Origin: Hypomesus transpacificus
Taxonomy: Eukaryota; Chordata; Actinopteri; Osmeriformes; Osmeridae
Assembly (NCBI RefSeq): GCF_021917145.1
Contig: NC_061076.1
Location: 992,344 to 1,056,343, forward strand
DNA: 64,000 nucleotides
Reading direction: 5' to 3'
In this document: positions 4,770 to 63,882 of the stretch, piece by piece
Layout of the letters: every line of letters begins with the position of its first letter
Position numbering within the stretch: position 1 is the stretch's first letter
Translations under genes and position numbers: made by a program
Notes under the pieces: model-generated
What the model saw: the letters and a program-made list of their open reading frames with translations, nothing else
Databases searched by the model: none
What the model was told of the DNA's origin: nothing

Positions 4770-6844
4770 ATGAACCACACCAAAGGAGGACTAGTCATCT
4801 TCAGCGCTAACTCTCATCCCTCCAGCCGAGAGTTGAGCAGAAGGATCTCCGAGTGAGTACATGCACGGATGGACAAGCAGAAAACACTTGGACATATTCG
4901 AGGTTTAGTGTCAACATGTAAACATTACGCCTTTTTCCAAACATGTATTCACACCCAACAGTCAGACTTGGTGTCTTTCTACCTGCAGTAATTATATCTA
5001 TAGTTTGTTGCAGTTTAGGGTCATAGTTCAGCTATGGATTCTGTTTCAGGAGAGGATTTAACGTTCTGCTCTTCTTGGGCATGAAAAGGTCAACACAATC
5101 TCCCACAGGAACACACTACTGTTTGTGTACTGTTTCCTTCACACACTCCCTGTTTGTGTCTTCCTTCACACACTCCCTGTTTGTGTCTCCCTTCACACAC
5201 TCCCTGTTTGTGTCTCCCTTCACACACTCCCTGTTTGTGTCTCCCTTCACACACTCCCTGTTTGTGTCTCCCTTCACACACTCCCTGTTTGTGTCTCCCT
5301 TCACACACTCCCTGTTTATGTCTCCCTTCACACACTCCCTGTTTGTGTCTTCCTTCACACACTCCCTGTTTGTGTCTCCCTTCACAGGCGGTTGGGGGTG
5401 GAACTTGGGAAGGTGCAGGTGTACCAGGAAGCTAACAGAGGTGTGCTACTGACCCCTCATGTACCCCAGCAGCTTGTTAAACTACTGGTGGTGTGTGTGT
5501 GTGTGTGTGTGTAGTGGTGTGTGTGTAGTACAGTAGAACTGCACCAGGAGCTAAGCATACCAGCTTTACCCATGCTCTCTCCCTCTTTTGCATTTTGTTT
5601 TATAATCAATGTTGCGTGGGAAGAACATTCTTGGCATGACTTGTTGTACAGTGCCTGTAGTGTGTAAGTGTGTGTGATAGGGCCAAAGTGAATGTGTGTG
5701 TGTGTGTGTGGGACAGAGAGTGTGTGTGTGTGTTGTGTGAGAGCGAGTCTATGTGAGAAATAACAGAGTAGAGCATGAGGTCTCTAATGAGGTCTCTTTA
5801 TGTGTGTGTGGAACAGAGAGAGTGTGTGTGTTAAGAAAACTCAAGCCTACTTCACACCCCCCTGTTACCATAGAGACACGTGTGCAGATCCAGGAGTCGG
5901 TGAGAGGAAAAGATGTTTTCATCATCCAGACTGTATCCAAGTATGTAAACACACACACACACTCACACACCAAGGCCCTTACACTGCTGGCTGCCACAAC
6001 TCTCACATTTGGAGAATGAAAGAGCCCCATCTCCCTCTCTCCTCCCCTCTCCCCTCCTCCCCTTTCTCCCTCTCCCTCTCTCCTCCTCCCCTCCCTCTCC
6101 CCCTCCTCCTCCCGTCTCCCTCTCTCTCCTCCTCGTCTGCCTCTCCCCTCTCCCTCTCTCTCCTCCTCCCCTGCCTCTCCCTCTCTCTCCTCCTCCCCTG
6201 CCTCTCCTCCTCTCCTCCCCTCCCTCTCCCTCTCCTCCTCCCATCTCCCTCCCTCTCTCTCCTCCTCCCCTCCCTCTCCCTCTCCTCCTCCCATCTCCCT
6301 CCCTCTCTCTCCTCCTCCCCTCCCTCTCCCTCTCCTCCTCCCATCTCCCTCCCTCTCTCTCCTCCTCCCCTGCCTCTCCCCTCCTCCCCTCTGTGCAGGG
6401 ATGTGAACACCACCATCATGGAGATGCTGATCATGGTGTACGCCTGTCGGACGTCGTGTGCCCGGAGCATCATCGGGGTTCTTCCCTACTTCCCCTACAG
6501 CAAGCAGTGCAAGATGAGGAAGAGAGGCTCCATCGTGTCCAAGCTGCTGGCCTCCATGATGTGCAAAGCAGGTGAGGGAAACACACACACCGACCCATGG
6601 AAACAGACACAAACACACTTGTGCTACACAAACTGACTCATGTACACACGCACACATGTAACTTTTCCTGCCTAGTTTATGGAGGGACAGAGATGTCTCA
6701 CTGTGTGTGTGTGTGTGTGTGTGTGTAGGTCTGACTCATCTCATCACCATGGATCTCCATCAAAAGGAGATTCAGGGCTTCTTCAACATCCCAGTGGACA
6801 ACCTGCGGGCCTCCCCCTTCCTTCTACAGTACATCCAGGAGGAG

Positions 6845-6880
<36 letters not shown>

Positions 6881-8236
6881 CAGCATGTTGTACATGTCGC
6901 AGAAGGTAAACATGATTCCTGTATTCTGTATTCATCTACAGATCCCAGACTATAGAAATGCTGTGATTGTGGCCAAATCTCCTGCCTCTGCCAAAAGGTA
7001 GTCTTTCTGCACCCCTTCACCTACCAGTGTGTTGGAGAGTGTTAGTGCGGCCTTACTGTGTGTGTGTGTGTGTGTGTGTGCGCAGGGCCCAGTCCTTTGC
7101 TGAGCGCTTGCGTCTGGGTATAGCTGTGATCCACGGGGAGGCCCAGGACGCAGAGTCAGACCTGGTGGACGGACGCCACTCCCCCCCCATGGTCAGGACC
7201 ACGGGAGCCATCCACCCCAGCCTGGAGATACCACGTAACACACACACACACACCTGTACAACACAAACACACACACACACCTGTACAACACACACACACC
7301 TGTACAACACACCTTTCTCTCTAGAACTGTACACAACCTCAAAATTCCGTCTGTCTGGAGCACAACCCCATGTCTGTCCTAAACTCCAGCTCACACACCT
7401 GTCCCTCTGTCTGTGTGTGTGTGTGTGTGGACAGTGCTGATCCCTAAAGAGAAGCCCCCCATCACCGTGGTGGGAGATGTGGGAGGGCGCATCGCCATCA
7501 TCGTGGTGAGCGTCACTCCTTCTGGGGGCGGGACACTGATGTAGTGTTGTCACGTCTGTGGAGTTCCTAATGATTGACAGCTCTCATCCGTCTGACCCCG
7601 CCCCATAGGATGACATCATCGATGATGTGGACAGTTTTGTGGCGGCGGCTGAGACGCTGAAGGAGCGCGGGGCGTACAAGATCTTTGTCATGGCAACGCA
7701 CGGCATCCTGTCCTCGGACGCACCCCGGCTCATAGAGGAGTCCGCCATCGATGAGGTGTGTGTCTGTCTGTGTGTGTGGCAGTGTGTGTGTCTCTGTGTG
7801 TGTGTGGCAGTGTGTGTCTGTGTGTTCTACTTACGCGACAGTCCGTGGGACTGTATAACATGTGTTCTGTCCAGGTGGTGCTGACGACTGTATAACATGT
7901 GTTCTGTCCAGGTGGTGCTGACGGCTGTATAACATGTGTTCTGTCCAGATGGTGCTGACGACTGTATAACATGTGTTCTGTCCAGGTGGTGCTGACGACT
8001 GTATAACATGTATAACATGTGTTCTGTCCAGGTGGTGCTGACGGCTGTATAACATGTATAACATGTGTTCTGTCCAGGTGGTGGTCACCAACACCATTCC
8101 TCATGAGCTGCAGAAGCTGCAGTGTCCTAAGATCAAGACGGTGGACATCAGCATGATCCTGGCCGAGGCCATCAGACGCATCCATAACGGGGAGTCCATG
8201 TCCTACCTGTTCAGGAACATAGGGATGGACGACTGA
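4770..8236 (+). CDS. prpsap2: Phosphoribosyl pyrophosphate synthetase-associated protein 2
   Basis: This is a regulatory, non-catalytic subunit of the cytosolic PRPP synthetase complex, which makes PRPP for nucleotide synthesis. Coding exons: 4770-4852, 5388-5440, 5874-5940, 6399-6571, 6729-6844, 6942-6997, 7086-7234, 7435-7505, 7609-7755, 8078-8236. They total 1074 nt and encode 357 residues, close to human PRPSAP2 (369). All junctions are GT..AG and phase-consistent. Recognisable blocks include [77 protein letters not shown] (the PRPP-binding-like loop) and the C-terminus [13 protein letters not shown]. The paralog-specific stretch [19 protein letters not shown] favours PRPSAP2 over PRPSAP1. 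The PAP-specific insertion ([10 protein letters not shown]) is present. The start [15 protein letters not shown] matches the family. Intron 1 ends in a 27-bp minisatellite and intron 9 holds five duplicated acceptors. Confidence 0.97.
5127..5386 (+). repeat. 27-bp minisatellite abutting prpsap2 exon 2 acceptor
   Basis: About 9.5 copies of a 27-bp unit made of TTCACACACTCCC followed by TGTTTGTGTCTCCC. The final partial copy reads CCCTTCACAG and is itself the acceptor AG of the exon starting at 5388. The array therefore supplies the polypyrimidine tract. The unit length is divisible by three, so several frames stay open; these are not genes. Confidence 0.95.
6028..6396 (+). repeat. Long polypyrimidine (C/T) tract in prpsap2 intron 3
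   Basis: About 370 bp of nearly pure C/T, with recurring CTCCTCCCATCTCCCTCCCT-type units, ends at the acceptor CTGTGCAG before the exon starting at 6399. It is an unusually long pyrimidine tract on the transcribed sense strand. Long open frames here are low-complexity shadows. Confidence 0.95.
7850..8077 (+). repeat. Tandemly duplicated splice acceptor in prpsap2 intron 9
   Basis: Six copies of a unit containing TGTTCTGTCCAG|GTGGTG. The true acceptor ends at 8077 and continues into [10 protein letters not shown]. Copies ending at 7874, 7911, 7948, 7985 and 8031 are decoys followed by GTGGTGCTGACG, or ATGGTGCTGACG at 7948. The spacing is 37, 37, 37, 46 and 46 bp; the longer units carry an extra TATAACATG. 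Using a decoy would add a few residues and then meet TAA. Confidence 0.95.
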
Positions 8237-8239
8237 ACA

Positions 8240-11619: not shown

Positions 11620-14600
11620 CTAGCTCCCCGTGGATCGTTTACCTGGTGGAGAGAAGAACCCAAGCAGCTTGAGAACGTGTCTGTGAGCGGTTTAACCGAC
11701 CACTCCCGGTGTGTTCCTCCTGCCCGGCCTGTGAGTGCCTCCCTCTGCTGCCCCCACCTGGACACACACAGGCCCTGCGAAAGCCAGGCGCTCTGGGCCA
11801 GGCTTGCCCTCCCCGCCCCCAGACACAGCCTGCTGAGGCTCTGTCCTCCAGGCTGACCCTAGGGAGAGCCATCCAGGGGCAGCTCTCTGGGAACAGGGCT
11901 GCTGGAGACTCTCTACGTGCTTAATGATCTGCATGAACCTGTAATGTGTGTGTACCTGTAGTGGTGTTGGTGACACCGTTGACGGTCCCCTCCACGTCGG
12001 TCTCGTCCTCAGCGTAGCTCATGAGCAGAGCTCTCTGTCTGTCTGTCAGCAGTCTGCACAGAGACAGAAGGACAGCACACAGGAGTCAGGGACAGCACAC
12101 AGGAGTCAGAAGGACAGCACACAGAAGGACAGCACACAGGACACAGAAGGACAGCACACAGGACACAGAAGGACAGCACACAGGAGTCAGAAGGACAGCA
12201 AAAAGGACACAGAAGGACAGCACACAGGAGTCAGGGACAGCACACAGGAGTCAGAAGGACAGCACACAGGAGTCAGAAGGACAGCACACAGGAGTCAGAA
12301 GGACAGCACAAACTGTAGGAATAATCTATTCCTTCCAACAGAGAGGAAGCCAGCATGGAGCCAGGAAGAGAACGGGAAGGAGGGATGTGATGTGTCATGT
12401 GATGTGTCATGTGACGTGTCATGTGACGTGTCATGTGATGTGTCATGTGACAGCTTGGGGTCTTACTTTGGGACTCGGATCTTGACGTGGACATAGTGAT
12501 CTCCGAAGCCGTAGCCGCTGATCCGGGCGATCCCCTTTCCTGTGAGGAGGATCCTGTGGTCAGTCTGGACCCCAGCTGGGATCTGGAGACAACCAGCCAA
12601 TCAGTGAGATGCTGTGATACTGACATAATCCTTAGTGTGCACATTTGTGTGTGTGTGTGTGTGTCTTACAGTGAGGTTGAGAGCCTCGTACAGGCCCTGA
12701 GCGCGGGCCGTGCCCCCCAGTATGGCCTGAGCCACAGAGATGAGGACGTCAGAGTGGACGTCCGCCCCATCCCTCCGGAACACCGGGCTCCTCTGGACCT
12801 GCAGGACGCACAGGGGGATATGTCAAACCACTCCTATCCTCACGGCAACGGAATGTATTTATTTAGCTGTTTTCACAAGACCAGTTACAGGGGGACGGGA
12901 ATATCGAGGGTGTCAGACCCACCCTGAACGTGATGAAGATTTCCTTGTTTCCCACTGGCATCCTGACTGTCTGGCCCTCCTCAACCCCTACACACACACA
13001 CACACACCAGGGGTATGACTTCAGACTCACACAGATGTATGTGTATGTGTGTGTGTGTGTGTGTCTCACCAGCAGGCACGGGCACCATGACGGTCCTCCT
13101 CTGCTTGGTCTGCCCCGTGCCCCGGCAGCCTCCGCAGGGGGTGGAGATGACGGAGCCCTTCCCCCCGCAGCGCCGGCAGGTGGAGCGCATCACGAACGGC
13201 CCCGTGTTCACCGTCTCCTGCAGCGGCACAGCGGCGAGCACCGTTAGGCACACACTCCAGGACGTGACATCACACACACTCCAGGACGTGACATCACACG
13301 CAACACAGGCCAAGAGAGTCTGGAGGGACTCAGTGATGCACTCTATTTATTATTACTCGCTTTGCATAAATGAATAAAGATATGAAGTGGGTGACCGTTT
13401 ATTTAAAGGGAGCCATGATGGACTCACCATGCCGGAGCCGTTGCAGTGGTGGCAGTGCTGGACCTTGGTACCAGGTTCATGGCCTTTGCCATCGCAGCGC
13501 TGGCAGCTGGCGTCCATGTTGACGGTTATCTCCTTGTTGACGCCCTTGGCAGCCTGGGTGAAGGTCAGCTCCATGATGTACTGAGGACACAGCAGGGCAC
13601 ACACCCGGATGACCACAACATACCTGGGAGAAGATGGCTCACGTCTAGGATACATCACTCCACTCACTGTCTATGTCACTTAACTCTATTCTATCAATAG
13701 ATAGACCAAGGTTCACCAATACTTCAATGTTCTCGTTTAGGGTTTTGCCTCCATTTTCTCTGCGCATCCCTGCTGACCTCTTGTGGCTGGTCGAACACAG
13801 CGTTAAAGTCTCCAAAGCCACGAGCTCCGGAGAACTCCCCGAAGATCTTGCGGAACAGTTCCTCCGGGTCCACGTGTGTGGCTTGGCCGCTCCAGTACTG
13901 CTGCTGCCCCGCCCCTCGCTGCCCCGCCCCCGCGTCGAAGCCCGCCGTCCCGTACGTGTCGTACTGTTTCCTCTTCACCTCGTCACTCAGCACCTGACCA
14001 CCAGGACACAAACACAAAGTAAACTAACCGCTCTGCACACATAGCACCTGACAGCCCTGCTGCACCAGAGGAGGGTGACAAGAGAGACCGACCAGAGGAG
14101 GGTGACAAGAGAGACCAACCAGAGGAGGGTGACGAGAGAGAGACCGACCAGAAGAGAGAGACCGATCCGGAAAAGAGTGAAGAGAGAGACCAACCAGAGG
14201 AGGGTGACAAGAGAGAGACCGACCAGAAGAGAGAGACCAACCAGAAGAGGGTGACAAGAGAGACCGACCAGAAGAGAGTGAAGAGAGAGACCGACTAGAA
14301 GAGAGTGAAGAGAGAGACCGACCAGAAGAGAGTGAAGAGAGAGATCGACCAGAAAAGAGTGAAGAGAGAGACCAACCAGAGGAGGGTGACAAGAGAGAGA
14401 CCGACCAGAAGAGAGAGACCAACCAGAAGAGGGTGACAAGAGAGACCGACCAGAAGAGAGTGAAGAGAGAGACCGACTAGAAGAGAGTGAAGAGAGAGAC
14501 CGACCAGAAGAGAGTGAAGAGAGAGACCGACCAGAAGAGAGTGAAGAGAGAGACCGACCTCGTAAGCCTCAGCTAGCTGAGCGAACTTCTCTTTGGCCTG

Positions 14601-17409: not shown

Positions 17410-17530
17410 AGCCCCTCAAGTCAGTCCCCCTGCCTTGAGTCAGTCCCCCTGCCTCGAGTCAGTCCCCCTGCCTCGAGACAGTCCCCCTGCCTCGAGACAG
17501 TCCCCCTGCCTCGAGTCAGTCCCCCTGCCA
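17410..17530. repeat. ~20-bp minisatellite CCCCCTGCCTCGAGTCAGTC
   Basis: Six to seven tandem copies with single-base variation (GAGT/GAGA), in the probable srebf2 3' UTR. Confidence 0.9.
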
Positions 17531-18175: not shown

Positions 18176-18262
18176 GTGTACATATCAACAAATAGAACAT
18201 CTGTAGCAGAAACCAGGGTGGAGATTGGCAGTGAGTGTAGGTCCCTTTTGTTATCTCTTATG

Positions 18263-18300
<38 letters not shown>

Positions 18301-18459
18301 ATGCGCATGTTAAACATTAATGGTACACCTAAAGCATTTTGAATGGTCAATGATCCATGATGCATCACGGACCACTTCTCTGTTCGAGTTCTTTGAGATG
18401 CGTGTCTGACAGGTACCTGGTGTGCACTTGTGTGTGTGTGTGCTTGTGTGTGTGTGTCA

Positions 18460-22860: not shown

Positions 22861-22936
<76 letters not shown>

Positions 22937-23457: not shown

Positions 23458-23514
<57 letters not shown>

Positions 23515-42809: not shown

Positions 42810-43505
42810 GACTACAGGGAGAGAGAGACACAGAAAGAGAGAGAGAGAGAGAGGACGACAGGGAGAGAGACACACACAGAGAGAGAGAGAGAGAGGACGA
42901 CAGAGAGATGACAGACAGCAGCTTGGTGGTGATAGAAGCTGTGAGAGGTTTAAATAAGAACAATCTCCCATGAGATCATCTTTGATCCAACAACCCCTCT
43001 CACTCTCACATCTAGTCTCTATGTCTCTCCCTCTCAAACACACACACACATCACAGCCCTGTCTGTGAGGCACAAAGGAAACGCAGCAAACAGCAGAAGA
43101 TGGTGAGGAGGGAGAGAAAACGTTCCAGAACACTGTCACTTCCTGTCCAGAACACCGTCACTTCCTGTCACTCTGAAGACAGGCAGTGAGAGGGACTTAA
43201 TGAAGCACTGTTTCCTGTCTGGACACACTGTGGAAGATACTGCGTGTGTACTGTATGTGTGTGTATACCTGTGTGAGCAGCAGTGTGTGTGTGTGTGTGT
43301 GTACCTGTGTGAGCAGCTGTGTGTGTGTGTGTACCTGTGTGAGCAGCAGTGTGTGTGTGTGTGTGTACCTGTGTGAGCAGCAGAGAGAGGGCCTGTGTGC
43401 TCTGCTCCTCCAGCTCCTCCAGTCCTCTCGTCTCCACAGCGTCCAGCACCTTCCTCAGGTGTGGCTCCCACATCACCACACTGCTGCCTGCTGCCACCAG
43501 CTGCA

Positions 43506-43540
<35 letters not shown>

Positions 43541-44563: not shown

Positions 44564-44603
<40 letters not shown>

Positions 44604-50600: not shown

Positions 50601-53600
50601 CAGTGAGCTGGAGGCAGGCTGAGGCAGTGTGTGTGTGTGTCACCTCCATCACCACAGTGAGCTGGAGGCAGGCTGAGGCAGTGTGTGTGTGTGTCACCTC
50701 CATCACCACAGTGAGCTGGAGGCAGGCTGAGGCAGTGTGTGTGTGTGTCACCTCCATCACCACAGTGAGCTGGAGGCAGGCTGAGGCAGTGTGTGTGTGT
50801 GTCACCTCCATCACCACAGTGAGCTGGAGGCAGGCTGAGGCAGTGTGTGTGTGTGTGTCACCTCCATCACCACAGTGAGCTGGAGGCAGGCTGAGGCAGT
50901 GTGTGTGTGTGTCACCTCCATCACCACAGTGAGCTGGAGGCAGGCTGAGGCAGTGTGTGTGTGTGTCACCTCCATCACCACAGTGAGCTGGAGGCAGGCT
51001 GAGGCAGTGTGTGTGTGTGTCACCTCCATCACCACAGTGAGCTGGAGGCAGGCTGAGGCAGTGTGTGTGTGTGTCACCTCCATCACCACAGTGAGCTGGA
51101 GGCAGGCTGAGGCAGTGTGTGTGTGTGTGTCACCTCCATCACCACAGTGAGCTGGAGGCAGGCTGAGGCAGTGTGTGTGTGTGTGTCACCTCCATCACCA
51201 CAGTGAGCTGGAGGCAGGCTGAGGCAGTGTGTGTGTGTGTCACCTCCATCACCACAGTGAGCTGGAGGCAGGCTGAGGCAGTGTGTGTGTGTGTGTCACC
51301 TCCATCACCACAGTGAGCTGGAGGCAGGCTGAGGCAGTGTGTGTGTGTGTGTCACCTCCATCACCACAGTGAGCCGGAGGCAGGCTGAGGCAGTGTGTGT
51401 GTGTGTCACCTCCATCACCACAGTGAGCTGGAGGCAGGCTGAGGCAGTGTGTGTGTGTGTCACCTCCATCACCACAGTGAGCTGGAGGCAGGCTGAGGCA
51501 GTGTGTGTGTGTGTCACCTCCATCACCACAGTGAGCTGGAGGCAGGCTGAGGCAGTGTGTGTGTGTGTCACCTCCATCACCACAGTGAGCTGGAGGCAGG
51601 CTGAGGCAGTGTGTGTGTGTGTCACCTCCATCACCACAGTGAGCTGGAGGCAGGCTGAGGCAGTGTGTGTGTGTGTGTCACCTCCATCACCACAGTGAGC
51701 TGGAGGCAGGCTGAGGCAGTGTGTGTGTGTGTCACCTCCATCACCACAGTGAGCTGGAGGCAGGCTGAGGCAGTGTGTGTGTGTGTCACCTCCATCACCA
51801 CAGTGAGCTGGAGGCAGGCTGAGGCAGTGTGTGTGTGTGTCACCTCCATCACCACAGTGAGCTGGAGGCAGGCTGAGGCAGTGTGTGTGTGTGTCACCTC
51901 CATCACCACAGTGAGCTGGAGGCAGGCTGAGGCAGTGTGTGTGTGTGTGTCACCTCCATCACCACAGTGAGCTGGAGGCAGGCTGAGGCAGTGTGTGTGT
52001 GTGTGTCACCTCCATCACCACAGTGAGCTGGAGGCAGGCTGAGGCAGTGTGTGTGTGTGTCACCTCCATCACCACAGTGAGCTGGAGGCAGGCTGAGGCA
52101 GTGTGTGTGTGTGTGTCACCTCCATCACCACAGTGAGCTGGAGGCAGGCTGAGGCAGTGTGTGTGTGTGTGTCACCTCCATCACCACAGTGAGCTGGAGG
52201 CAGGCTGAGGCAGTGTGTGTGTGTGTCACCTCCATCACCACAGTGAGCTGGAGGCAGGCTGAGGCAGTGTGTGTGTGTGTGTCACCTCCATCACCACAGT
52301 GAGCTGGAGGCAGGCTGAGGCAGTGTGTGTGTGTGTGTCACCTCCATCACCACAGTGAGCTGGAGGCAGGCTGAGGCAGTGTGTGTGTGTGTCACCTCCA
52401 TCACCACAGTGAGCTGGAGGCAGGCTGAGGCAGTGTGTGTGTGTGTCACCTCCATCACCACAGTGAGCTGGAGGCAGGCTGAGGCAGTGTGTGTGTGTGT
52501 CACCTCCATCACCACAGTGAGCTGGAGGCAGGCTGAGGCAGTGTGTGTGTGTGTGTCACCTCCATCACCACAGTGAGCTGGAGGCAGGCTGAGGCAGTGT
52601 GTGTGTGTGTGTCACCTCCATCACCACAGTGAGCTGGAGGCAGGCTGAGGCAGTGTGTGTGTGTGTCACCTCCATCACCACAGTGAGCTGGAGGCAGGCT
52701 GAGGCAGTGTGTGTGTGTGTCACCTCCATCACCACAGTGAGCTGGAGGCAGGCTGAGGCAGTGTGTGTGTGTGTGTCACCTCCATCACCACAGTGAGCTG
52801 GAGGCAGGCTGAGGCAGTGTGTGTGTGTGTCACCTCCATCACCACAGTGAGCTGGAGGCAGGCTGAGGCAGTGTGTGTGTGTGTGTCACCTCCATCACCA
52901 CAGTGAGCTGGAGGCAGGCTGAGGCAGTGTGTGTGTGTGTGTCACCTCCATCACCACAGTGAGCTGGAGGCAGGCTGAGGCAGTGTGTGTGTGTGTGTCA
53001 CCTCCATCACCACAGTGAGCTGGAGGCAGGCTGAGGCAGTGTGTGTGTGTGTGTCACCTCCATCACCACAGTGAGCTGGAGGCAGGCTGAGGCAGTGTGT
53101 GTGTGTGTGTCACCTCCATCACCACAGTGAGCTGGAGGCAGGCTGAGGCAGTGTGTGTGTGTGTGTCACCTCCATCACCACAGTGAGCTGGAGGCAGGCT
53201 GAGGCAGTGTGTGTGTGTGTGTCACCTCCATCACCACAGTGAGCTGGAGGCAGGCTGAGGCAGTGTGTGTGTGTGTCACCTCCATCACCACAGTGAGCTG
53301 GAGGCAGGCTGAGGCAGTGTGTGTGTGTGTCACCTCCATCACCACAGTGAGCTGGAGGCAGGCTGAGGCAGTTTGTGTGTGTGTGTCACCTCCATCACCA
53401 CAGTGAGCTGGAGGCAGGCTGAGGCAGTGTGTGTGTGTGTGTCACCTCCATCACCACAGTGAGCTGGAGGCAGGCTGAGGCAGGTCACCTCCATCACCAC
53501 AGCTGGAGGCAGGCTGTGTGTGTGTGTGTGTCACCTCCATCACCACAGTGAGCTGGAGGCAGGCTGAGGCAGTGTGTGTGTGTCCCCTCCATCACCACAG

Positions 53601-56600
53601 TGAGCTGGAGGCAGGCTGAGGCAGTGTGTGTGTGTGTGTCACCTCCATCACCACAGTGAGCTGGAGGCAGGCTGAGGCAGTGTGTGTGTGTGTGTCACCT
53701 CCATCACCACAGTGAGCTGGAGGCAGGCTGAGGCAGTGTGTGTGTGTGTGTCACCTCCATCACCACAGTGAGCTGGAGGCAGGCTGAGGCAGTGTGTGTG
53801 TGTGTGTCACCTCCATCACCACAGTGAGCTGGAGGCAGGCTGAGGCAGTGTGTGTGTGTGTGTCACCTCCATCACCACAGTGAGCTGGAGGCAGGCTGAG
53901 GCAGTGTGTGTGTGTGTGTGTCACCTCCATCACCACAGTGAGCTGGAGGCAGGCTGAGGCAGTGTGTGTGTGTGTGTGTCACCTCCATCACCACAGTGAG
54001 CTGGAGGCAGGCTGAGGCAGCAGTGCAGGAAGGTGAAGGCCGGCAGCAGAGACTCTGTGTTGGTGGGCTGCAACTTCCCTGCCAAGGTACTGACTGTACA
54101 CACACGCACACGCACGCGCACACACGCACGCACACACACACACACACACACACAAGCACACGGACATGAGAAAGACCAAGAGAGTGAAATAGTGAAAGAG
54201 GAAGAAAGTGAAACAGAAGAGAGAGGCACATAGCAAGAACAGAGAGGAACAGAGAGTATCTGTGGAGCCTATACCTCCATCCTGTCCCAGCCTGCAGGGG
54301 ACCTGTCATACAGGCTGCTAAGGTGGGGTGGTGGGGGGGCAGGGTGGTGGGGGGGCAGGGTGGTGGTGGACTGGCTGGGGCAGGGTGGTGTGGGGGCAGG
54401 GGCAGGGTGGTGGTGGACTGGCTGGGGCAGGGTGGTGGGGGGGCAGGGGCAGGGTGGTGGTGGACTGGCTGGGGCAGGGTGGTGGTGGACTGGCTGGGGC
54501 AGGGTGGTGGACTGGCTGGGGCAGGGTGGTGGTGGACTGGCTGGGGCAGGGTGGTGGGGGGGGCAGGGGCAGGGTGGTGGTGGACTGGCTGGGGCAGGGT
54601 GGTGGGGGGGCAGGGTGGTGGTGGACTGGCTGGGGCAGGGTGGTGGTGGACTGGCTGGGGCAGGGTGGTGGGGGGGCAGGGGCAGGGTGGTGGTGGACTG
54701 GCTGGGGCAGGGTAGTGGGGGGGCAGGGTGGTGGTGGACTGGCTGGGGCAGGGTGGTGGTGGACTGGCTGGGGCATGGTGGTGGGGGGGCAGGGGCAGGG
54801 TGGTGGTGGACTGGCTGGGGCAGGGTGGTGGTGGACTGGCTGGGGCAGGGTGGTGGACTGGCTGGGGCAGGGTGGTGGTGGACTGGCTGGGGCAGGGTGG
54901 TGGTGGACTGGCTGGGGCAGGGTGGTGGACTGGCTGGGGCAGGGTGGTGGTGGACTGGCTGGGGCAGGGTGGTGGTGGACTGGCTGGGGCAGGGTGGTGG
55001 ACTGGCTGGGGCAGGGTGGTGGTGGACTGGCTGGGGCAGGGTGGTGGTGGACTGGCTGGGGTAGGGTGGTGGTGGAATAGCTGGGGCAGGGTGGTGGGGC
55101 AGGGTGGTGGGGCAGGGTGGTGGTGGTGGGGATTCATTTCCTGTTAGTTTCACGTATAGCTACAACAAGAGCTTGTTCCTCTGCAGCGAGGTAGAGAACT
55201 GTCACTGAGCTGACAAGTAAGGAAGTGCAGCACCGACACTGACTGAAGATCAGTGTGTTTGACCCCTGGGACGAGCCTGTGACCTCCGACCCTGTGCCCT
55301 GACCGTGGTAGAGCAGCTTGAAGTGGGTTCCGTCCGTGTCACTGTCAGCCGGAGCCCGTCTGGTCTGGGTCACACACAGCAGCCTCAGGACCAGGGAGAG
55401 AGAGTCCACACCTAGAGGAGAGAGGGGAGAAGCAGAGAGAGAGAAAGGGAGAGGGAGGAGAGAGCAGGGTGAGAGAGAGCAGGGAGGGAGAGGGAGGAGA
55501 GAGCAGGGAGAGAGGGAGGAGAGAGCAGGGAGGGAGAGGGAGGAGAGAGCAGGGAGAGAGGGAGGAGAGAGCAGGGAGGGAGAGAGCAGGGAGGGAGAGA
55601 GGAGAGAGCAGGGAGGGAGAGAGCAGGGAGGGAGAGAGGAGGGAGGGAGAGAGGAGAGAGCAGGGTGGGAGAGAGCAGGGAGGGAGAGAGCAGGGAGGGA
55701 GAGAGGAGAGAGCAGGGAAGGAGAGGAGAGAGCAGGGAAGGAGAGGAGAGAGCAGGGAAGGAGAGGAGAGAGCAGGGAAGGAGAGGAGAGAGCAGGGAAG
55801 GAGAGGAGAGAGCAGAGAAGGAGAGGAGAGAGCAGGGAGGGAGAGGGAGAAAGAAAATTACATTAAAGCAGAAGTATGTAAAAGAAAAAGTGGAGGGAAT
55901 ATGAAGAGAAGGCAGGCAGACAGGATGAACCCGTGGCGAGGGAGGATTAAAGCAGACCCTCATCTACATTTTCTCCTCCACTCCATCACCCCCAGGAATA
56001 CTTCTCTAAAGGGTAGCTCATATAAAGTATATATGAATGATAATTCCTCATATGGTGTAGGCAAGGAGGAGCAGAGAAGAGGAGACAGGAGGAGAGGGTA
56101 GAGGACAAAGTGGATGGGTGTGTGTGTGTGAGTGTGTGTGTGCGTGCGTGCGTGTGTGTGTGCGTGTGTGCGTGTGTGTGTGTGTGACTCACCCTGGCCT
56201 GGCCCCTCCAGGGTGAGTCTCTGCAGCACCTGGAGCAGGGTGGGGGGGAGGAGGGCGGCCAGGCTGGCATCACAGCTTCCCCTGCTCTGCAGGAACACCT
56301 CCAGCAGGGCCAAGGCCCGCTCTGCCAGGGGCCCCTCCCTGGTACACACCAGGCCCTGGTACAAAGACAGCAGGATGGAAGTGGACCTGGATAGTGTGTG
56401 GAGGACAGTGGAGGGGAGGGAGGTGAGCAGGGTCTCACCAGCATGGTCAGGATGACTGAGGGGTTCTTCTCCATCAGAGCCAGCAGGACAGCGCTCTCCT
56501 GGTCCTGGGCCTGGTCCTGGTCAACAGTTTGGGTCGATCACATTTTAATCAGGTCAAAGTTTCGGTCAAAAAAATACTAGTTTTTCCAACATTTTACAAA

Positions 56601-59600
56601 AACACGTTTCTTATCACCCACTTAAGGGGAAAAGCATAGAGCAAATGTGAGCACCCTCCACATTCTAGACAGCCTGTCTGTGTCTATGACAGCTCCCAGA
56701 CTCTCCCAGACTCTCCCAGACTCTCCCAGACTCTCCCAGAATCTCCCAGACTCTCCCAGACGCTCCCAGACACTCCCAGACTCTCCCAGACTCTCCCAGA
56801 CTCTCCAGACTCTCCCAGACTCTCCCAGACTCTCCCAGACTCTCCCAGAATCTCCCAGACTCTCCCAGACTCTCCCAGACTCTCCCAGACTCTCCCAGAC
56901 GCTCCCAGACTCTCCCAGACGCACCCTGCCCTCGGGCTGCTCTGGAGCCACGTCTGGCTCCCTGGTCTGGTGGCTCAGCCACAGCTCCAGGATCTGGGCT
57001 CCAAAGCCCTGGGCCAGCTCAGGGTAGCGGTACAGGAAGTGGAGGAGGGGGGCGTGGTGGATGTAGAGGGAGGAGAGGCAGGGGCTGGAGGCCAGGGTCT
57101 TACTGATGCTGTTCAGAGGAGCCTGGAGGGAGGAGGGGGGGAGGGAAGAGGAGAGGGGGGAGGAGAGAGATAGAGATGAACAGAGGTTGGGAGAGGAAGA
57201 GGGGGAGGAGAGAGATAGAGATGAACAGAGGTTGGGAGAGGAAGAGGGGGAGGAGAGAGATAGAGATGAACAGAGGTTGGGAGAGGAAGAGGGGGGAGGA
57301 AAGAGATAGAGATGAACAGAGGTTGGGAGAGGAAGAGGGGGAGGATGAGTGGCAGTAACAGAGAGAGCTTATGAATTGATCTGATTTCATACTACAAAGG
57401 GATTCATTTAATCTTCCAGTCAGAGAGAGCGAGAAAACAAGCAAGGAGGAGGAGAGAGAGAGCGAGCGAGGGGGAGGAGAGAGAGAGCGAGCGAGGGGGA
57501 GGAGAGAGAGAGCGCGCGAGGGGGAGGAGAGAGAGAGCGAGGGGGAGGAGAGAGCGAGCGAGGGGGAGGAGAGAGAGCGAGCGAGGGGGAGGAGAGAGAG
57601 ACTGTGTGTGTGTGAGCAGCGTTACCCAGGCGAGAGGGGGGCTGCGGTCCTGAGTGGCAGCCAGCAGGTAGAGGGCAGCTCTGAGCACCCAGGGGGGCGG
57701 GGGGGGGGCCGTGCCCCTGCTGCTGGACTGAACACAGCAGCCCACACACACTGGAGAACACTGTGGAGTCAGGAAGCAGCCTGCAACACACACACAGAGG
57801 TACACACACACACACACAGACAGACAGCCTGTATGTATGGGCCTGAGGGGGATTGTGTGTGTTTACGTATCTCATAGTGTGTGAAGCTGTCTCCATGCTG
57901 CAGTGCTGGGTTGCTCTGGGTCCTCAGTGTGTGTGTGTGTGTGTGTGTGTGTACCTGTCTCCATGCTGCAGGGCCAGCTGCAGCATCAGGAGCAGGCAGT
58001 GCTGGGTGGCCCTGGGGCCAGCAGAGGGGGGGTGTGTCCCCGGGGCCTCAGCCAGCAGAGAGGGCCAGTCTGACACACGCACACACAGAGCAGGCAGCAC
58101 GCACCCCAACACACTGTCCACCTCCTCCTGGTCTGGGAGCACACACAGGGGGTGAGTCAGTACCTGTCTGTGCTGTGTGGGTGAGTCAGTACCTGTGTGT
58201 GTGTGCTGTCTGAGTGAGTCAGTACCTGTGTGTGTGTGCTGTGTGGGTGAGTCAGTACCTGTGTGTGTGTGGTGTCTGGGTGAGTCAGTACCTGTGTGTG
58301 TGCTGTCTGAGTGAGTCAGTACCTGTGTGTGCTGTGTGGGTGAGTCAGTACCTGTGTGTGTGTGTGCTGTCTGGGTGAGTCAGTACCTGTGTGTGGTGTG
58401 TGCTGTGTGGGTGAGTCAGTACCTGTGTGTGTGTGTGCTGTCTGGGTGAGTCAGTACCTGTGTGTGTGTGTGCTGTGTGGGTGAGTCAGTACCTGTGTGT
58501 GGTGTGTGCTGTCTGGGTGAGTCAGTACCTGTGTGTGTGTGTGCTGTGTGGGTGAGTCAGTACCTGTCTGTGTGCTGTCTGGGTGAGTCAGTACCTGTCT
58601 GTGTGCTGTCTGGGTGAGTCAGTACCTGTGTGTGGTGTGTGCTGTGTGGGTGAGTCAGTACCTGTGTGTGTGTGTGCTGTCTGGGTGAGTCAGTACCTGT
58701 GTGTGTGTGTGCTGTGTGGGTGAGTCAGTACCTGTGTGTGTGCTGTGTGGGTGAGTCAGTACCTGTGTGTGCTGTGTGGGTGAGTCAGTACCTGTGTGTG
58801 TGCTGTGTGGGTGAGTCAGTACCTGTGTGTGCTGTGTGGGTGAGTCAGTACCTGTGTGTGTGTGTGCTGTGTGGGTGAGTCAGTACCTGTGTGTGTGCTG
58901 TGTGGGTGAGTCAGTACCTGTGTGTGCTGTGTGGGTGAGTCAGTAATGTACCTTGCTGCGGGGAGATCTGGGACAGCAGACACACACTGAGCTTCTGAAT
59001 AAACACACTGCACGACACATTCAGAGAAGAGTTCCTGAGAGAGAGAGAAAGAGAGAGGTGGAGGAGAGAGAGAAAGAGAGAGATGGAGGAGAGAGAGGAT
59101 AGAACACCATCATGATTTGTACGAGGTGAGCTTGTAAAAGTGAAAGAGAACAGAGTGGTTGTGTTATAAAGACAGCATTTCACTTCAGGTAAGAGCTCTG
59201 GGGATTCAGTTTCATTCCAGCTCACACACCAAAAGAACTCCCACACACACATACACACAGTCCCACACATACACACAGTCCCACACATACACACAGTCCC
59301 ACACATACACACAGTCCCACACATACACACATGCGTTTACCAGACACGGGGAGAGAGATGTAGCTTGCCGACCACGAGGAGCCAGAAGTGACAGTAAAAG
59401 AATGGAGATCTAAGGCTTCATTGCTTGGTTATGCTCTGTTAGCCTGTGTGTGTGTGTGTGTGTGTGTGTTCTTCTGTTACCTGCCTCCTACACAGAGGAG
59501 AGCTTTGTGCTCCAGTGCCAGCCTGTAGAAACCAGAAGAGGCTGGAGAGAGGGAGGAAGAGGAGGAGAGGGAGGAGGAGGAGGAAGAGGAGGAGGAGGAG

Positions 59601-59956
59601 AGGAGGAGGAGGAAGAGAGGAGAGGAGGAGAGGGAGGAGGAAGAGGAGGAGGAGGAGAGGGAGGAGGAGGAGAGGGAGGAGGAGGGATATGGAGGAAAGA
59701 ATGGGGAATAAATGGTAAGAGGAAGAGGTGATGAGTGACAAGGTAAACAAGGTTCTTGCATTGTCAAGTGCTATCTCATGTAGTCATGACATTACCCTGT
59801 GACCCCTGACCCTAGTGAACCTTTCTCGACCTCTGAGCTCACCCAGTTTGGCAGCGAAGCGGGGCATGAGCGTGGGCAGCAGGGAGAACTGGGACAGCAG
59901 GATGGAGTAGAAGTACTGCAGAACCTGAGGACTGGGAGAACTCTCACACTGCTTCT

Positions 59957-59987
<31 letters not shown>

Positions 59988-62900
59988 TACACGCACACAC
60001 ACACACACACACACACGCACTGAGTCAACACAACCAACTATGAGTATAAATGTACTGTATGTGTGTGTGGAGTAGCAGCTCTCACAGTGACTGTGGGGAT
60101 GCAGACAGAGTCACAGCTGTGCAGAAGACACACACACAGAGACTGGAGCGGGTCCTGACTCTGACTTTGACTCGAGGGAGCGGTGAACACGTTCTCCTTC
60201 AGCCCGGGCTCTGACGCACACTGCTCCGCAAGCCTGACACACACACACACATGCAGAGAGACACACACACTACTGAAAAGGACACATAACGTACAGTGAG
60301 TTGAGGTTCTTACTGTGTGCAGCCTACCTGCAAGCAGCCTGCAGGCAGACCAGGGCCTGAAGTAGAAAGCCCCCTGCCCTGGAGGCCTGGCTGTGGGCCT
60401 CACTGACCTTCACACTCCCCTGGAGACACAGGAGCGGGGAGGAGAACGCTTACAGAACAGGAGGAGCAGGAGAGAGGAGGAGAGAGAGAGGAGAGGGAGG
60501 AGAGGGAGGAGAGGAAGGAGAGGGAGGAGGAGAGGGAGGAGGAGAGGGAGGAGGAGAGGTAGGAGGAGAGGGAGGAGGAGAGATAGGAGGAGGAGACTCA
60601 CAGGGCCTGGGCGGTGAGAGGAGGATGGTAGTGGCAGCTCAGCACACCTGGCTGTGATGGCCTCCACCAGCTTCTCCACAGCCTGGTGCTGCACCGGGCT
60701 GGACTGGTGCTGAAGCCTGCACACACACACAGGACTGAGTAGGAGAAAGTGTGTGTGTGTCACTGTGTGTGAGTGTCACTTTGTGTGTGTGTCACTGTGT
60801 GTGTGTGTGTACCTGAGCAGGGTGGCGGCAGTGCGTGCTGCCTGAGTGGCCACCTGCAGACTGGAGGAGGCCACGCCCCCTAACACCACCTCTGCCACCG
60901 CCAGGAACGCAGAGCCGCTGGGGAACAGACACACTCCTACGGGCTGTCTGCTCACACACACACACACACAGTGACTCACACACACACACAGTGACTCACA
61001 CACACACACAGTGACTCACACACACACACACACACAGTGACTCACACACACACACTCAGACACACACACAGTGACTCACACACACACACACTCAGACACA
61101 CACACACACACACTCACACACACACACAGTGACTCACACACACACACTCAGACACACACACAGTGACTCACACACACACACACACAGTGACTCACACACA
61201 CACACAGTGACTCACACACACACACAGTGACTCACACACACACACACACACAGTGACTCACACACACACACACACACACACACACAGTGACTCACACACA
61301 CACACTCAGACACACACACAGTGACTCACACACACACACACACAGTGACTCACACACACACACTCAGACACACACACACACTCACACACACACACAGTGA
61401 CTCACACACACACACACACACACACACACAGTGACTCACACACACACACACACACAGTGACTCACACACACACACTCAGACACACACACAGTGACTCACA
61501 CACACACACACACAGTGACTCACACACACACACTCAGACACACACACACACACACTCACACACACACACAGTGACTCACACACACACACTCAGACACACA
61601 CACACACACACTCACACACACACACAGTGACTCACACACACACACTCAGACACACACACACACACACTCACACACACACACAGTGACTCACACACACACA
61701 CTCAGACACACACACAGTGACTCACACACACACTCAGACACACACACTCACACACACACACAGTGACTCACACACACACACTCAGACACACACACACACA
61801 CACTCACACACACACACAGTGACTCACACACACACACTCAGACACACACACACACACACACACTCACACACACACACAGTGACTCACACACACACACACA
61901 CACAGTGACTCACACACACACACACACACACACACACAGTGACTCACACACACACACTCAGACACACACACAGTGACTCACACACACACACACACAGTGA
62001 CTCACACACACACACTCAGACACACACACACACTCACACACACACACAGTGACTCACACACACACACACACACACACACACAGTGACTCACACACACACA
62101 CACACACAGTGACTCACACACACACACTCAGACACACACACAGTGACTCACACACACACACACACAGTGACTCACACACACACACTCAGACACACACACA
62201 CACACACTCACACACACACACAGTGACTCACACACACACACTCAGACACACACACACACACACTCACACACACACACAGTGACTCACACACACACACTCA
62301 GACACACACACACACACACTCACACACACACACAGTGACTCACACACACACACTCAGACACACACACAGTGACTCACACACACACTCAGACACACACACT
62401 CACACACACACACAGTGACTCACACACACACACTCAGACACACACACACACACACTCACACACACACACAGTGACTCACACACACACACTCAGACACACA
62501 CACACACACACACACTCACACACACACACAGTGACTCACACACACACACACACACACGGGCTAAGGCTGACCTACATGCGGTTGGTACCTGCGTGTGTGT
62601 GCTGATGCTGCAACATGTGTGAGTACCCGTGTTGCCCCAACAACACCCTTGAAGCCAGACTGTTCACACACCTGCATACAGACTGTTCACACATCTGCAT
62701 ACAGCGTGTGTGTTTCTGTGTGTTTTAGGGATGCCACAATTCTCAATATAATATTGAACTTTTTGTTATGCGCTTGTGAAAAGCATTTCTTTATTTTTTG
62801 GTTTGATTTTAGCATTTAAATCTTTTCTCTGCGTTTTCTTCTCCCTGAATTCTCTCTAGCACTAAATTGGCAACACGATTCTACGCACTGAGGAAACGCC

Positions 62901-63882
62901 TTCACACAACTAGATATCCAATCACAGCTCTGTTCCATCCTGGGGCGGAGCCAGACGTCGTAAACGTCCCACATTTTTACCTGAAAGATTCAAGTCTTCT
63001 GAGAAACTTTAGTATTTTTATTTAAGATCTGTATATGTTTATTGTATGCACCTTCCTGCCACAGTCAATTCTGTGATTGTGTAAACTTACATGGCACATA
63101 AACCAAATTGTGATGTGTGTGTGGACCTCACCTCTCCAGTACCTCAGGGGTGATGTGTGTGTGTGTGTGTGGACCTCACCTCTCCAGGACCTCAGTGAGC
63201 AGCAGCAGGCCCTGTGTCTGCACCTCCAGGTTGGTCATCCTCAGAACCTGCTTCAGACTACACACCAGGGACTCAATACCTGACACACACACACATAAAC
63301 ACACACACACACAGACAGAGAGAGAGAGGGAAAGGAAGGGAGGGAGACAGATTGAATGAAGTGGAGCAGAAGGTGAGTGAGATTGTTTCTGGATGTGCTG
63401 GTGGCGACAACCTTTACCTCTATCAGCAGACACCGTGTATGAGTGTGTGTGTGTGTGTGATTGTGTGGGTGTGTGTGATTGTGTGATTATGTGGGTGTGA
63501 GAGATGTGTCTCACCATAAACAGAGTGACACTGGGAGAAGAAGAGCGGATCTTCAGTCAGCAGGAGCAGACTGCTGTGAACAGAGCACAGCAGAACCTCA
63601 CTGGTGGTACACAGACACTCAAACAGGAACTCTGGACCAGGGACGAAGAGAGGGGAGGGGGAGGAGAGAGGGGGCAGGTAGAGGGGCAGGTTGAGGAGAG
63701 GGCCATGAGAGGGAGGAAGGAGTAGAGGAGCAGGGAGGACAAAGTAGGGTGTGTGTGTGTCGCCCACCAGGTACGTCTGCCAGGATGAAAGGGGAACAGT
63801 ACTGAGTCGGGGAGTGAACCAGGATGGCCACCATACACTGGGCACTGGCAACCTGCAACACCTCATCCCCACTCAGCAGCAG
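42253..63882 (-). CDS. mei1: Meiotic double-strand break formation protein 1, C-terminal ~950 residues
   Basis: MEI1 is an armadillo-like scaffold that works with the REC114-MEI4 machinery to allow SPO11/TOPOVIBL breaks in meiosis. Exons in transcript order: 63882-63768, 63631-63515, 63279-63180, 60947-60813, 60716-60602, 60419-60328, 60233-60086, 59954-59843, 59541-59481, 59034-58952, 58132-57955, 57780-57626, 57122-56925, 56516-56439, 56355-56193, 55411-55304, 54093-53983, 48602-48415, 47016-46932, 45407-45226, 44096-44015, 43708-43602, 43500-43369, then a probable last exon 42489-42253. Exon ends are phase-matched throughout, except one base too many in a homopolymer of exon 57780-57626. 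Family blocks: [67 protein letters not shown]. The last exon ([20 protein letters not shown]) is tentative; its frame runs through a CA repeat to TGA at 42255. The gene's 5' part is beyond the right edge. Order and orientation match MEI1-CCDC134-SREBF2 in human. Confidence 0.92.
42500..42905 (-). repeat. GA-rich low-complexity tract near mei1 3' end
   Basis: Mostly GAGAGA with GGACGACAGGGAGAGAGACA-type units recurring about five times (42665-42905). Pyrimidine-rich on the mei1 sense strand; it lies just upstream of the acceptor of the probable last exon at 42489. Confidence 0.9.
43263..43390 (-). repeat. Four-copy duplication of a mei1 exon end plus donor
   Basis: On the mei1 strand CTGCTGCTCACACAG|GTACACACAC occurs four times, with junctions near 43369 (true), 43334, 43304 and 43268; the last has GTATAC. 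Spacing is about 30-36 bp, separated by CA runs. Each copy retains 12-15 nt of exon and a usable donor. Confidence 0.92.
44370..44712 (-). repeat. (GA/GGA)n polypurine tract in mei1 intron
   Basis: Irregular GAGAGAGGAGAGACAGAGAG sequence, almost pure purine on the plus strand, between mei1 exons at 45226 and 44096. Long apparent frames on both strands are low-complexity shadows. Confidence 0.9.
45420..46095 (-). repeat. GGAGAAGGAGATGAGA polypurine minisatellite in mei1 intron
   Basis: About 675 bp of purine units (GAGGAGAAGGAGATGA, GAGGAGAAGGAGGAGGGATGA) on the plus strand. The array begins about 12 bp from the exon acceptor at 45407, providing a very long pyrimidine tract on the transcribed strand. 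A SINE is inserted at its far edge. Confidence 0.94.
46100..46284 (+). mobile_element. tRNA-headed SINE, copy 3 (mei1 intron)
   Basis: A box TGGCTGAGCGGTGA, B box GGATCGATTCC, central TGTCCTTGGGCAAGGCAATT, tail TAAGAGCGTCTGCTAAATGA then CTAAATGAGAGG. It is flanked on both sides by the GA-rich minisatellite, so it inserted into or beside that array. Confidence 0.92.
47705..48412 (-). repeat. 22-bp minisatellite beginning at a mei1 donor
   Basis: About 32 copies of GTGTGTGTGTAGCGTGCAGTCT (plus strand), with C/T alternation (GCGTGC/GCATGC) and two shorter units near 48095-48120. The true donor at 48414 reads CAG|GTACAGCTACACACACACAG, so the array starts about 10 bp into the intron. Long Thr/His/Leu-rich minus-strand frames are repeat artefacts. 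Confidence 0.96.
48603..49214. other. Unique intronic sequence, possible truncated DNA transposon
   Basis: Within the large mei1 intron between exons 54093-53983 and 48602-48415. At 48658 the sequence CAGGGTTTTCCTGCAT resembles a hAT-type terminal repeat, but no matching right end was found. No coding potential. Confidence 0.35.
49215..49526. repeat. GT-rich microsatellite with TCCATGTG/TCCACGTG spacers
   Basis: About 310 bp of GT repeats interspersed with CC(A/G)TG, giving TGTGTGTCCATGTGTGTGTG units. Open in all frames by composition. Confidence 0.93.
49527..50356. mobile_element. Non-autonomous hAT-like element (MITE)
   Basis: The left end is CAGGGTTCTTGCAGG (49527) and the right end CCACGGGAACCCTG (to 50356), giving inverted CAGGGTTC termini. 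Subterminal sequence on both sides contains repeated AAGACCTTTTTAAGAC-type motifs in inverted arrangement (49556-49610 and 50218-50345). No transposase frame is present. Both flanks are GTGTGTGT, consistent with but not proof of an 8-bp target-site duplication in a GT repeat. It sits exactly at the outer edge of the mei1 exon-end satellite. Confidence 0.72.
50357..53982 (-). repeat. ~66-copy satellite of a mei1 exon end plus its 5' splice site
   Basis: Units of 54-56 bp. On the mei1 strand each reads CCTCAGCCTGCCTCCAGCTC, then ACTGTGGTGATGGAG|GTGACACACACAC. The exon at 54093-53983 ends with the same 37 nt and the same donor (GGAG|GTGACA at 53982), so the array is a tandem amplification of that exon-intron junction running into the intron. 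Variation is mostly the GT-run length, with a rare T-to-C change (GAGCCGG at 50551 and 51371). An irregular copy lies near 53480-53520. Blocks repeat with an ~820-bp higher-order period. Confidence 0.97.
54325..55130 (-). repeat. G-rich 24-27-bp minisatellite in mei1 intron
   Basis: About 32 units of GGTGGTGGACTGGCTGGGGCAG, with GGTGGGGGGGCAGGGGCAG variants, on the plus strand. This is C-rich on the transcribed sense strand and G-rich on the template. Proline-rich minus-strand and Gly/Trp-rich plus-strand frames of 130-420 codons are repeat artefacts. Confidence 0.95.
55412..55855 (-). repeat. GGGAGAGAGGAGAGAGCA polypurine satellite at mei1 acceptor
   Basis: Units such as GAGAGAGCAGGGAGGGAGAG and GAGAGCAGGGAAGGAGAGGA fill about 440 bp. 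The array ends at the acceptor CTCTCCTCTAG before the exon starting at 55411, providing the pyrimidine tract on the transcribed strand. Confidence 0.93.
56690..56922 (-). repeat. 10-bp satellite TCTCCCAGAC at a mei1 donor
   Basis: About 23 copies of a decamer CTCCCAGACT, with AATCTC and CGCTCC variants. It reaches the donor of the exon 57122-56925; the intron begins GTGCGTCTGGGAGAGTCTGG, i.e. the repeat starts at about donor position +5. Confidence 0.95.
57125..57350 (-). repeat. ~43-bp purine minisatellite, four copies
   Basis: Copies of AGAGATAGAGATGAACAGAG followed by GTTGGGAGAGGAAGAGGGGG. It lies immediately upstream (on the mei1 strand) of the acceptor for the exon starting at 57122. 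Confidence 0.92.
58140..58945 (-). repeat. ~31-36-bp satellite starting at a mei1 donor
   Basis: About 24 units of GGTGAGTCAGTACCTGTGTG followed by TGTGTGCTGTGTG (plus strand). On the mei1 strand each unit reads CACACAG|GTACTGACTCACCC; the true donor of exon 59034-58952 is AAG|GTACATTACTGACTCACCC. Every unit carries an AG/GTACTGA junction that resembles a donor or an acceptor. Confidence 0.94.
59535..59695 (-). repeat. (GAG/GGA)n tract at a mei1 acceptor
   Basis: Purine-only GGAGGAGGAAGAGGAGGAGG sequence on the plus strand, reaching the acceptor CTCTCTCCAG of the exon starting at 59541. Confidence 0.92.
60455..60598 (-). repeat. GGAGAGGGAGGA purine tract at a mei1 donor
   Basis: About twelve GAGAGGGAGGAG units next to the donor at 60601. 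The intron begins GTGAGTCTCCTCCTCC on the transcribed strand. Confidence 0.9.
60955..62560. repeat. Compound CA satellite with GTGACTCA and ACTCAGAC spacers, 1.6 kb
   Basis: CA runs are punctuated by CAGTGACTCAC and CACTCAGACAC. The stretch 61397-61908 is repeated almost unchanged at 62049-62560 (offset 652 bp), so the array has a higher-order duplication. It occupies the mei1 intron between exons 63279-63180 and 60947-60813. Thr/His frames are artefacts. Confidence 0.95.
62600..63110. other. Unique intronic sequence in mei1
   Basis: AT-richer sequence between the CA satellite and the exon ending at 63180. No exon signal or mobile-element termini were recognised. Confidence 0.5.

Follow-up and report, generated by a model that had tools for sequence, protein, structure and literature searches.

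Why do tandem repeats in one fish locus begin or end so often at splice sites? The locus is a 64-kb stretch of Hypomesus transpacificus (NC_061076.1, positions 992,344 to 1,056,343), here called the window, and all positions below are counted from its first base. A sequence-only reading of the window had proposed that minisatellites in four genes are anchored on splice junctions, that random placement within introns would not give this pattern, and that tandem duplication around AGGT-like junctions may be seeding new splice sites and introns. These proposals concern three separable matters, namely, where the arrays lie, what sequence they carry, and how they arose.

Gene models and placement of arrays

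Exon models built from open reading frames, phase, and GT/AG boundaries cover five genes, with 66 exons and 61 introns; some first and last exons were not found. prpsap2 is on the plus strand, and dnaja3, srebf2, ccdc134, and mei1 are all on the minus strand. The joined prpsap2 exons encode 329 residues that align without gaps to human PRPSAP2 (2ji4), and this alignment also backs the junction at 8077. dnaja3 matches DnaJ domains (Pfam), with a 2dn9 match over 71 residues that lies on both sides of junction 14558. srebf2 aligns without gaps to 1am9 across junction 24702, and its model is further supported by a mir-33 hairpin (Rfam) inside an intron at 19419-19486. ccdc134 matches PF15002 (Pfam). 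In the fifth gene, exons 1 to 12 are open in one frame, as are exons 13 to 24. We take this gene to be mei1 on the basis of the label given in the sequence-only reading, human synteny, and frame continuity; exons 1 to 11 had no Pfam match and exons 13 to 24 had no PDB match. In exon 12 (57626-57780), which contains a run of C, a one-base shift seems to be needed for a better-looking frame, and the assembly may contain a homopolymer error at this run. A coding minisatellite (48487-48536) within the mei1 exon at 48415-48602 gives repeated SLSP residues. Between srebf2 and ccdc134 lies a large, putatively GIMAP-like GTPase reading frame (31296-33293, minus strand).

TRF arrays make up 33.9% of the window (21,708 of 64,000 bases, in 111 merged clusters) and cover 54.7% of the modeled introns, 2.7% of the modeled exons, and 16.9% of the rest. 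The junctions named in the sequence-only reading agree with the gene models: 11 of the 12 are modeled junctions, and prpsap2 5386 is 1 bp off. There, a 27-bp array (5136-5386, plus strand) stops 1 bp before the intron end at 5387; this array is outside the permutation described below because the upstream exon was left out of the model. Arrays hug the named junctions as described, with an edge 1 to 5 bp away at 6 of the 12 and an array spanning the junction at 5 (by 1 bp at 14558 and 24702, 6 bp at 8077, 15 bp at 43368, and 38 bp at 53982); the array at 58951 is 18 bp off.

Placement was tested by shuffling the arrays 20,000 times, without overlap, within their own introns, a null model that assumes uniform and independent placement. 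The set comprised 94 intron ends, from the 47 array-bearing introns of the 61. An array edge lay within 6 bp of the exon, or inside it, at 38 of the 94 ends, compared with 8.63 expected (P = 5e-5, the floor of the test), and the largest count in any shuffle was 20. At a limit of 2 bp (or beyond the junction), 17 ends were scored versus 3.8 expected, and at 12 bp, 47 versus 15.5. The excess within 6 bp was present for minisatellites only (arrays with a period of >6 and weak dinucleotide periodicity; 20 of 68 ends versus 4.25), for the more complex minisatellites (11 of 38 versus 2.25), for micro-like arrays (18 of 52 versus 2.98), and for arrays dominated by simple sequence (32 of 84 versus 5.7). 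By gene, it amounted to 19 ends versus 3.3 expected in mei1, 10 versus 2.6 in srebf2, and 6 versus 1.6 in prpsap2, and it was not significant in dnaja3 (2 versus 0.6; P = 0.10) or ccdc134 (1 versus 0.5; P = 0.44).

The sequence-only reading had allowed that short, repeat-dense introns might by themselves bring arrays next to exons. This property is insufficient alone, because the excess was seen in a permutation confined to each intron, and it was rejected as the sole cause. Among introns at most half covered by arrays, an edge within 6 bp was found at 13 of 42 ends versus 2.4 expected for all arrays and at 3 of 20 versus 0.82 for minisatellites (P = 0.04); for minisatellites within 12 bp, the excess in these introns was not significant (3 versus 1.5; P = 0.18). 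TRF settings were also rejected as the source of the adjacency, five settings being in agreement. Array placement is nonrandom and tied to exon borders, and the evidence against random placement within introns is stronger than had been claimed.

Strand-specific sequence at intron ends

Arrays no more than 15 bp from a donor or acceptor were assigned to strand-bias classes read in sense orientation. CA was the leading class in 16 of the 25 donor-side arrays (CT in 5, GT in 2, and AG in 2) and in 0 of the 23 acceptor-side arrays (CT in 14 and GT in 9), a difference with a Fisher P value of 5e-7 that includes one tied lead and some weak ones. When a clear lead was demanded, the donor side had 13 CA, 4 CT, 2 GT, and 6 unclear arrays of 25 and the acceptor side had 14 CT, 7 GT, and 2 unclear arrays of 23 (P = 2e-6). 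The 32 mid-intron arrays were led by CT in 12, GT in 11, CA in 6, and AG in 3. Among the arrays flush with junctions named in the sequence-only reading, all on the minus strand, are CA-rich arrays near donors (a 22-bp mei1 array at 47699-48409, 5 bp from donor 48414, and an srebf2 array at 19539-19821, 2 bp from donor 19823) and a CT-rich mei1 array 2 bp from an acceptor (55414-55850; acceptor 55412), together with a 10-bp mei1 array at 56693-56920, 4 bp from donor 56924, and a 22-bp dnaja3 array at 12057-12310, 3 bp from acceptor 12054. A GT-rich mei1 array (60952-62557, minus strand) is 4 bp from acceptor 60948, and the partner donor of that intron, 63179, is followed by a CA tract.

Simple runs within the introns have the same orientation. 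Near the donor (within 100 nt or the first half of the intron), 25 of the 61 introns have a CA/AC run of at least 10 and 5 have a GT run, while the 3' end has a GT run in 16 and a CA run in 4. A minority of introns carry both, with AC at the 5' end and GT at the 3' end in 10 of 61 and the reverse in 1 of 61. Fourteen introns are free of arrays; of these, 3 have a CA run of at least 8 at the donor end and 4 have a GT run of at least 8 at the acceptor end, so that 6 have a CA-donor or GT-acceptor tract, 0 are reversed, and 8 have neither. The clearest case is an array-free dnaja3 intron (12988-13069, minus strand) of the form GTGAG(AC)n...(GT)nAG, which we propose as the seed state. Three AC/GT introns were folded, and the minimum-energy helix joined the ends of 12988-13069 (z, -2.0), 60717-60812 (z, -1.4), and 59955-60085 (z, -0.4); the end-joining helix was present in the centroid for 60717-60812 only. 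A GT-only intron that was folded had no end-joining helix.

AC/GT bridging introns of fish were reportedly described by Lin et al. in Genome Research in 2016. In two reviews, AC- and GT-rich tracts are said to form a stable structure across an intron class in fish and lamprey (PMC7404189), and dinucleotide repeats at opposite intron boundaries are said to mediate U2AF2-free splicing in zebrafish (PMC9198270). Such introns and those of the window are alike in having an AC tract near the donor and a GT tract near the acceptor, in the same orientation; they differ in that many of the end tracts here are arrays, some of kilobase size, and in that the acceptor arrays here favor CT over GT. The strand bias fits the known AC/GT ends of fish introns plus the polypyrimidine tract, and the bulk of the flush arrays looks like an expansion of these known intron-end tracts.

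Exon sequence and decoy splice sites in mei1 and prpsap2 arrays

Exon tails, taken as the final 50 bp of the exon upstream of each intron, were compared by alignment with that intron and with every other one. A score of at least 13 was reached by 5 of 61 own introns versus 21 of 3,660 cross pairs (P = 5e-5), and in a wrong-side control, in which the exon tail was compared with the upstream intron, a score of 13 was reached in 1 of 56. One of the five, mei1 46931 (score of 14), was rejected as a junction copy, since the CA sequence that it shares lies off the junction; without it, 4 of 61 own introns carry exon-tail copies (P = 6e-4). These four are all at mei1 donors (4 of 23 versus 0 of 38 in the other genes; P = 0.017).

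The largest case is the array at 50357-54020 (minus strand), which includes the authentic donor 53982 and whose unit consists of 38 bp of exon tail, the donor GTGACA, and (CA)n. The unit is mostly 54 to 58 bp long and is present in about 66 copies including the authentic one (66.9 copies by TRF), with 63 exact 38-mers and 65 occurrences of GAGGTGACA, authentic included, in 3.66 kb. At donor 43368 (43252-43383, minus strand), 15 bp of exon tail is followed by GTACAC and (CA)n in four copies including the authentic one, and one copy has GTATAC instead of GTACAC. Donor 63179 has a two-copy duplication (63132-63195, minus strand) that falls outside the TRF calls and comprises 16 bp of exon tail (15 of 16 identical), GTGAGGTCC, and a CA tract. 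At donor 57954 (57887-57971, minus strand), a (CA)n tract is followed, 51 nt from the start of the intron, by a copy of 17 bp of exon tail, and the copy is of exon tail only, without the donor GT. In-phase exon bases recur at 9 of 10 positions at 63179 and at 10 of 10 at both 53982 and 43368, and in each case 0 of 60 other exons did as well. A CA tract lies between junction and copy in 4 of 4 mei1 cases, which is weak evidence for a breakpoint because CA tracts are common at these donors.

Two further observations concern the mei1 copies. Autocorrelation of the 50357-54020 array ranks 820 bp, or about 15 units, fourth among its peaks (behind 56, 54, and 110), and a block duplication is possible; because a direct comparison of blocks 820 bp apart gave 184 of 217 in one register, the 820-bp period is taken from the autocorrelation peak alone. 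All four copied exon tails start with CTG (43383, 54020, 57971, and 63195), a pattern of four cases noticed post hoc; within the final 60 bp of mei1 exons, CTG occurs at 7.6% of positions.

On the acceptor side, the prpsap2 array at 7849-8083 (plus strand) has units of TATAAC, a pyrimidine stretch, CAG, and the first 6 bp of the exon, the intron ending at 8077. The units carry GTGGTG, which resembles the authentic exon start, and 5 decoy acceptors precede the authentic one. Eight of 10 exon bases match, and 0 of 60 other exon heads were equally good; the copy is too short to reach a score of 13. Acceptor heads reached that score in 1 of 61 own introns versus 19 of 3,660 cross pairs, indicating no general copying of exon heads, and the exon copies are for this reason placed at donors, prpsap2 8077 apart.

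Other arrays that start at donors carry less of the exon or none. A 49-bp srebf2 array (23644-24703, minus strand) runs from donor 24702, where the authentic AAG/GTTAGT (the slash marking the junction) is followed by 21 further GTTAGT copies; it has no clear simple tract, and its exon similarity is borderline (6 of 10 in phase, with 1 of 60 other exons as good). A 27-bp CT-rich dnaja3 array (14064-14559, minus strand) runs from donor 14558 with 11 further exact GTCGGT copies and includes the GT with no exon copy (4 of 10 in phase, with 38 of 60 other exons equal). A 35-bp mei1 array (58165-58933, minus strand) has units with CAG/GTACTGACTCACC; donor 58951, 18 bp upstream, has related sequence, and the unit aligns by eye back to that junction with a 5-nt indel. 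Exon copies considered at dnaja3 14558, prpsap2 7756, and mei1 56924 were rejected, the in-phase match being no better than that of other exons, and a 9-bp match at srebf2 24976, which is off the junction, was taken as chance (40 random controls per end, with no fixed seed). The earlier claim that several arrays contain the junction itself therefore holds in its full sense, with exon bases and a splice site in a unit that spans the boundary, at mei1 53982, 43368, and 63179 and at prpsap2 8077; srebf2 24702 is borderline, and dnaja3 14558 contributes the GT only.

Units of this form characterize the mirage minisatellites of lancelet (globin, Adh3, TnC, and PGBD5), in which the unit spans an intron/exon boundary and the copies are reported to leave regular splicing undisturbed (PMC3087553, PMC3902484). 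The lancelet mirages and the mei1 and prpsap2 arrays have in common exon bases plus a splice site in each unit and an occurrence on both donor and acceptor sides. The present cases differ in being in a fish locus, in reaching about 66 copies at one junction, in occurring several times in one gene, in having a mei1 donor unit of exon tail, donor, and CA tract, and in being known here from one sequence. A striking minority of the arrays resembles lancelet mirages in form and may share their mechanism. In the listed entries for 62 of 210 literature matches, drawn from a collection thin in subscription journals, no fish case of junction copying was seen; two fish papers on repeats (PMC3045353 and PMC2688266) ranked high there.

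Use of a decoy would lead to a premature stop at 73 of 73 sites, comprising 64 of 64 donors at mei1 53982 (those keeping the motif GGAGGTGACA), 3 of 3 donors at 43368, 1 of 1 at 63179, and 5 of 5 acceptors at prpsap2 8077; none of the copied splice sites tested at these four junctions would be usable in the open reading frame. Because all of these decoys would give stops, we infer that the authentic junctions are probably spliced correctly or that other products are removed. At prpsap2 8077, the decoy stop would lie in the final coding exon and so might escape decay. The suggestion that repeats here seed new introns fared poorly: nothing in the window shows a new intron, and the idea of intron birth is not supported. 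In human, variable internal tandem repeats at exon-intron boundaries, with units averaging 30 bp, can yield new introns (PMC2812944). They are like the window arrays in being minisatellites at such boundaries, but the human cases lie in segmental duplications and have transcript support, whereas here DNA is the only source and decoy use would lead to stops. Intron gain by tandem duplication likewise copies splice sites in tandem, unlike the present locus in that no new intron or used decoy is shown here.

Origin of the flush arrays

We hold with moderate confidence to a two-layer explanation, in which tract expansion accounts for most flush arrays and copying of exon junctions for a few. In the first layer, simple tracts would occupy set positions in teleost introns according to strand, with AC directly downstream of the 5' splice site and GT or CT directly upstream of the 3' splice site, and these tracts would expand, presumably by slippage and unequal exchange, into arrays that abut the junctions. 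The second layer would comprise five junctions, perhaps six, including the four mei1 donors and the prpsap2 acceptor. At the mei1 donors, a duplication would start in the exon end and finish in or after the CA tract, the putative breakpoint, copying the exon tail, mostly with the donor and the CA tract; at the prpsap2 acceptor, the 3' splice site and exon head would be copied. Unequal exchange would then amplify the copies into a mirage-like minisatellite. Such an array may be tolerated because the authentic junction stays at its outer edge, and the spliceosome would have to pass over the decoy sites or their products be removed. Against the two layers stand the 9 of 25 donor-side arrays led by CT, GT, or AG, the 8 of 14 array-free introns with neither tract, and the prpsap2 acceptor array, which does not fit a CA-tract route. 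Folding support is weak, and arrays next to stop codons, considered below, point to a wider edge effect.

The AGGT-like junction itself might instead be the seed, with duplications nucleating there independently of CA, CT, or GT tracts, an explanation that we consider improbable. Enrichment persists among arrays in which neither a dinucleotide class nor purine/pyrimidine bias dominates (6 of 28 ends within 6 bp versus 1.6 expected; P = 0.001), and the srebf2 24702 and dnaja3 14558 arrays begin G/GT and repeat the exact donor hexamer; both observations favor a junction seed and count against the two layers, and the exon copies at four mei1 donors and one prpsap2 acceptor are also in its favor. 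However, arrays without simple-sequence dominance contribute 6 ends to the 38 that are flush within 6 bp, a copy of the first 12 intron bases (at least 11 of 12) is present within the intron at 9 of 61 donors, with exon bases clearly recurring in 3 of those 9, and the strand bias is not predicted. Junction duplication as proposed in the sequence-only reading thus survives at the few junctions where the splice site plus exon sequence forms the unit; the data do not show AGGT to be the seed, the other flush ends following the strand-specific CA, CT, or GT sequence.

An edge effect, in which arrays grow and unconstrained flank is lost until constrained sequence such as exons or stop codons is met, is similarly unlikely. 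Arrays begin 2 to 3 bp downstream of the stop codons of prpsap2 and srebf2 (at 8236-8238 and 18457-18460), which are both of the stop codons in the modeled genes, and the spacing is as tight as at splice sites; therefore, coding-sequence edges in general may be favored. Donor strength is lower within 6 bp of an array than elsewhere (1.61 versus 3.11 bits by matrix score; n = 19 and 42; P = 0.006), as if overwritten up to the GT, and the higher array coverage of introns than of sequence outside the modeled genes points the same way. On the other hand, both ends are flush within 12 bp in 8 of 61 introns, versus one or more ends in 39 of 61, and array-flush introns often retain a long free flank on the opposite side. 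The GIMAP-like frame has its stop at 31296, 18 bp from the nearest array, and the mir-33 hairpin is 53 bp from the array closest to it; neither the strand bias nor the exon copies are predicted.

Selection for repeats that aid splice-site pairing by RNA bridging, with arrays elsewhere lost, is less likely again: the preponderance of AC-5'/GT-3' introns over the reverse and the AC/GT introns reported in fish (PMC7404189 and PMC9198270) are in its favor, but folding is weak, a bridge accounts for neither the large complex arrays nor the CT arrays, and arrays with dozens of decoys look harmful or neutral.

Within the two-layer explanation, a more tentative step, which we rather doubt, would link the layers. 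Donor AC tracts, kept as splicing aids, may serve in the DNA as sites of breakage or slippage at which the adjoining exon end and donor are copied; a splicing element would then drive decoy output and intron growth in teleosts, and mei1, with 2 to about 66 copies, would have been caught in the act. Fish AC/GT introns and lancelet mirage minisatellites, which had been described separately, meet here in one vertebrate locus, where short tracts, a two-copy duplication, and a 66-copy array form a graded series. With such a locus, one could study how a single site is chosen by the spliceosome when dozens of identical ones lie nearby, and whether the places at which introns grow are influenced by a splicing element. 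Repeats of another kind are also present in the window, where two UnaL2 LINE 3' elements (Rfam; 35489-35542 and 46229-46282) mark the ends of dispersed repeats.
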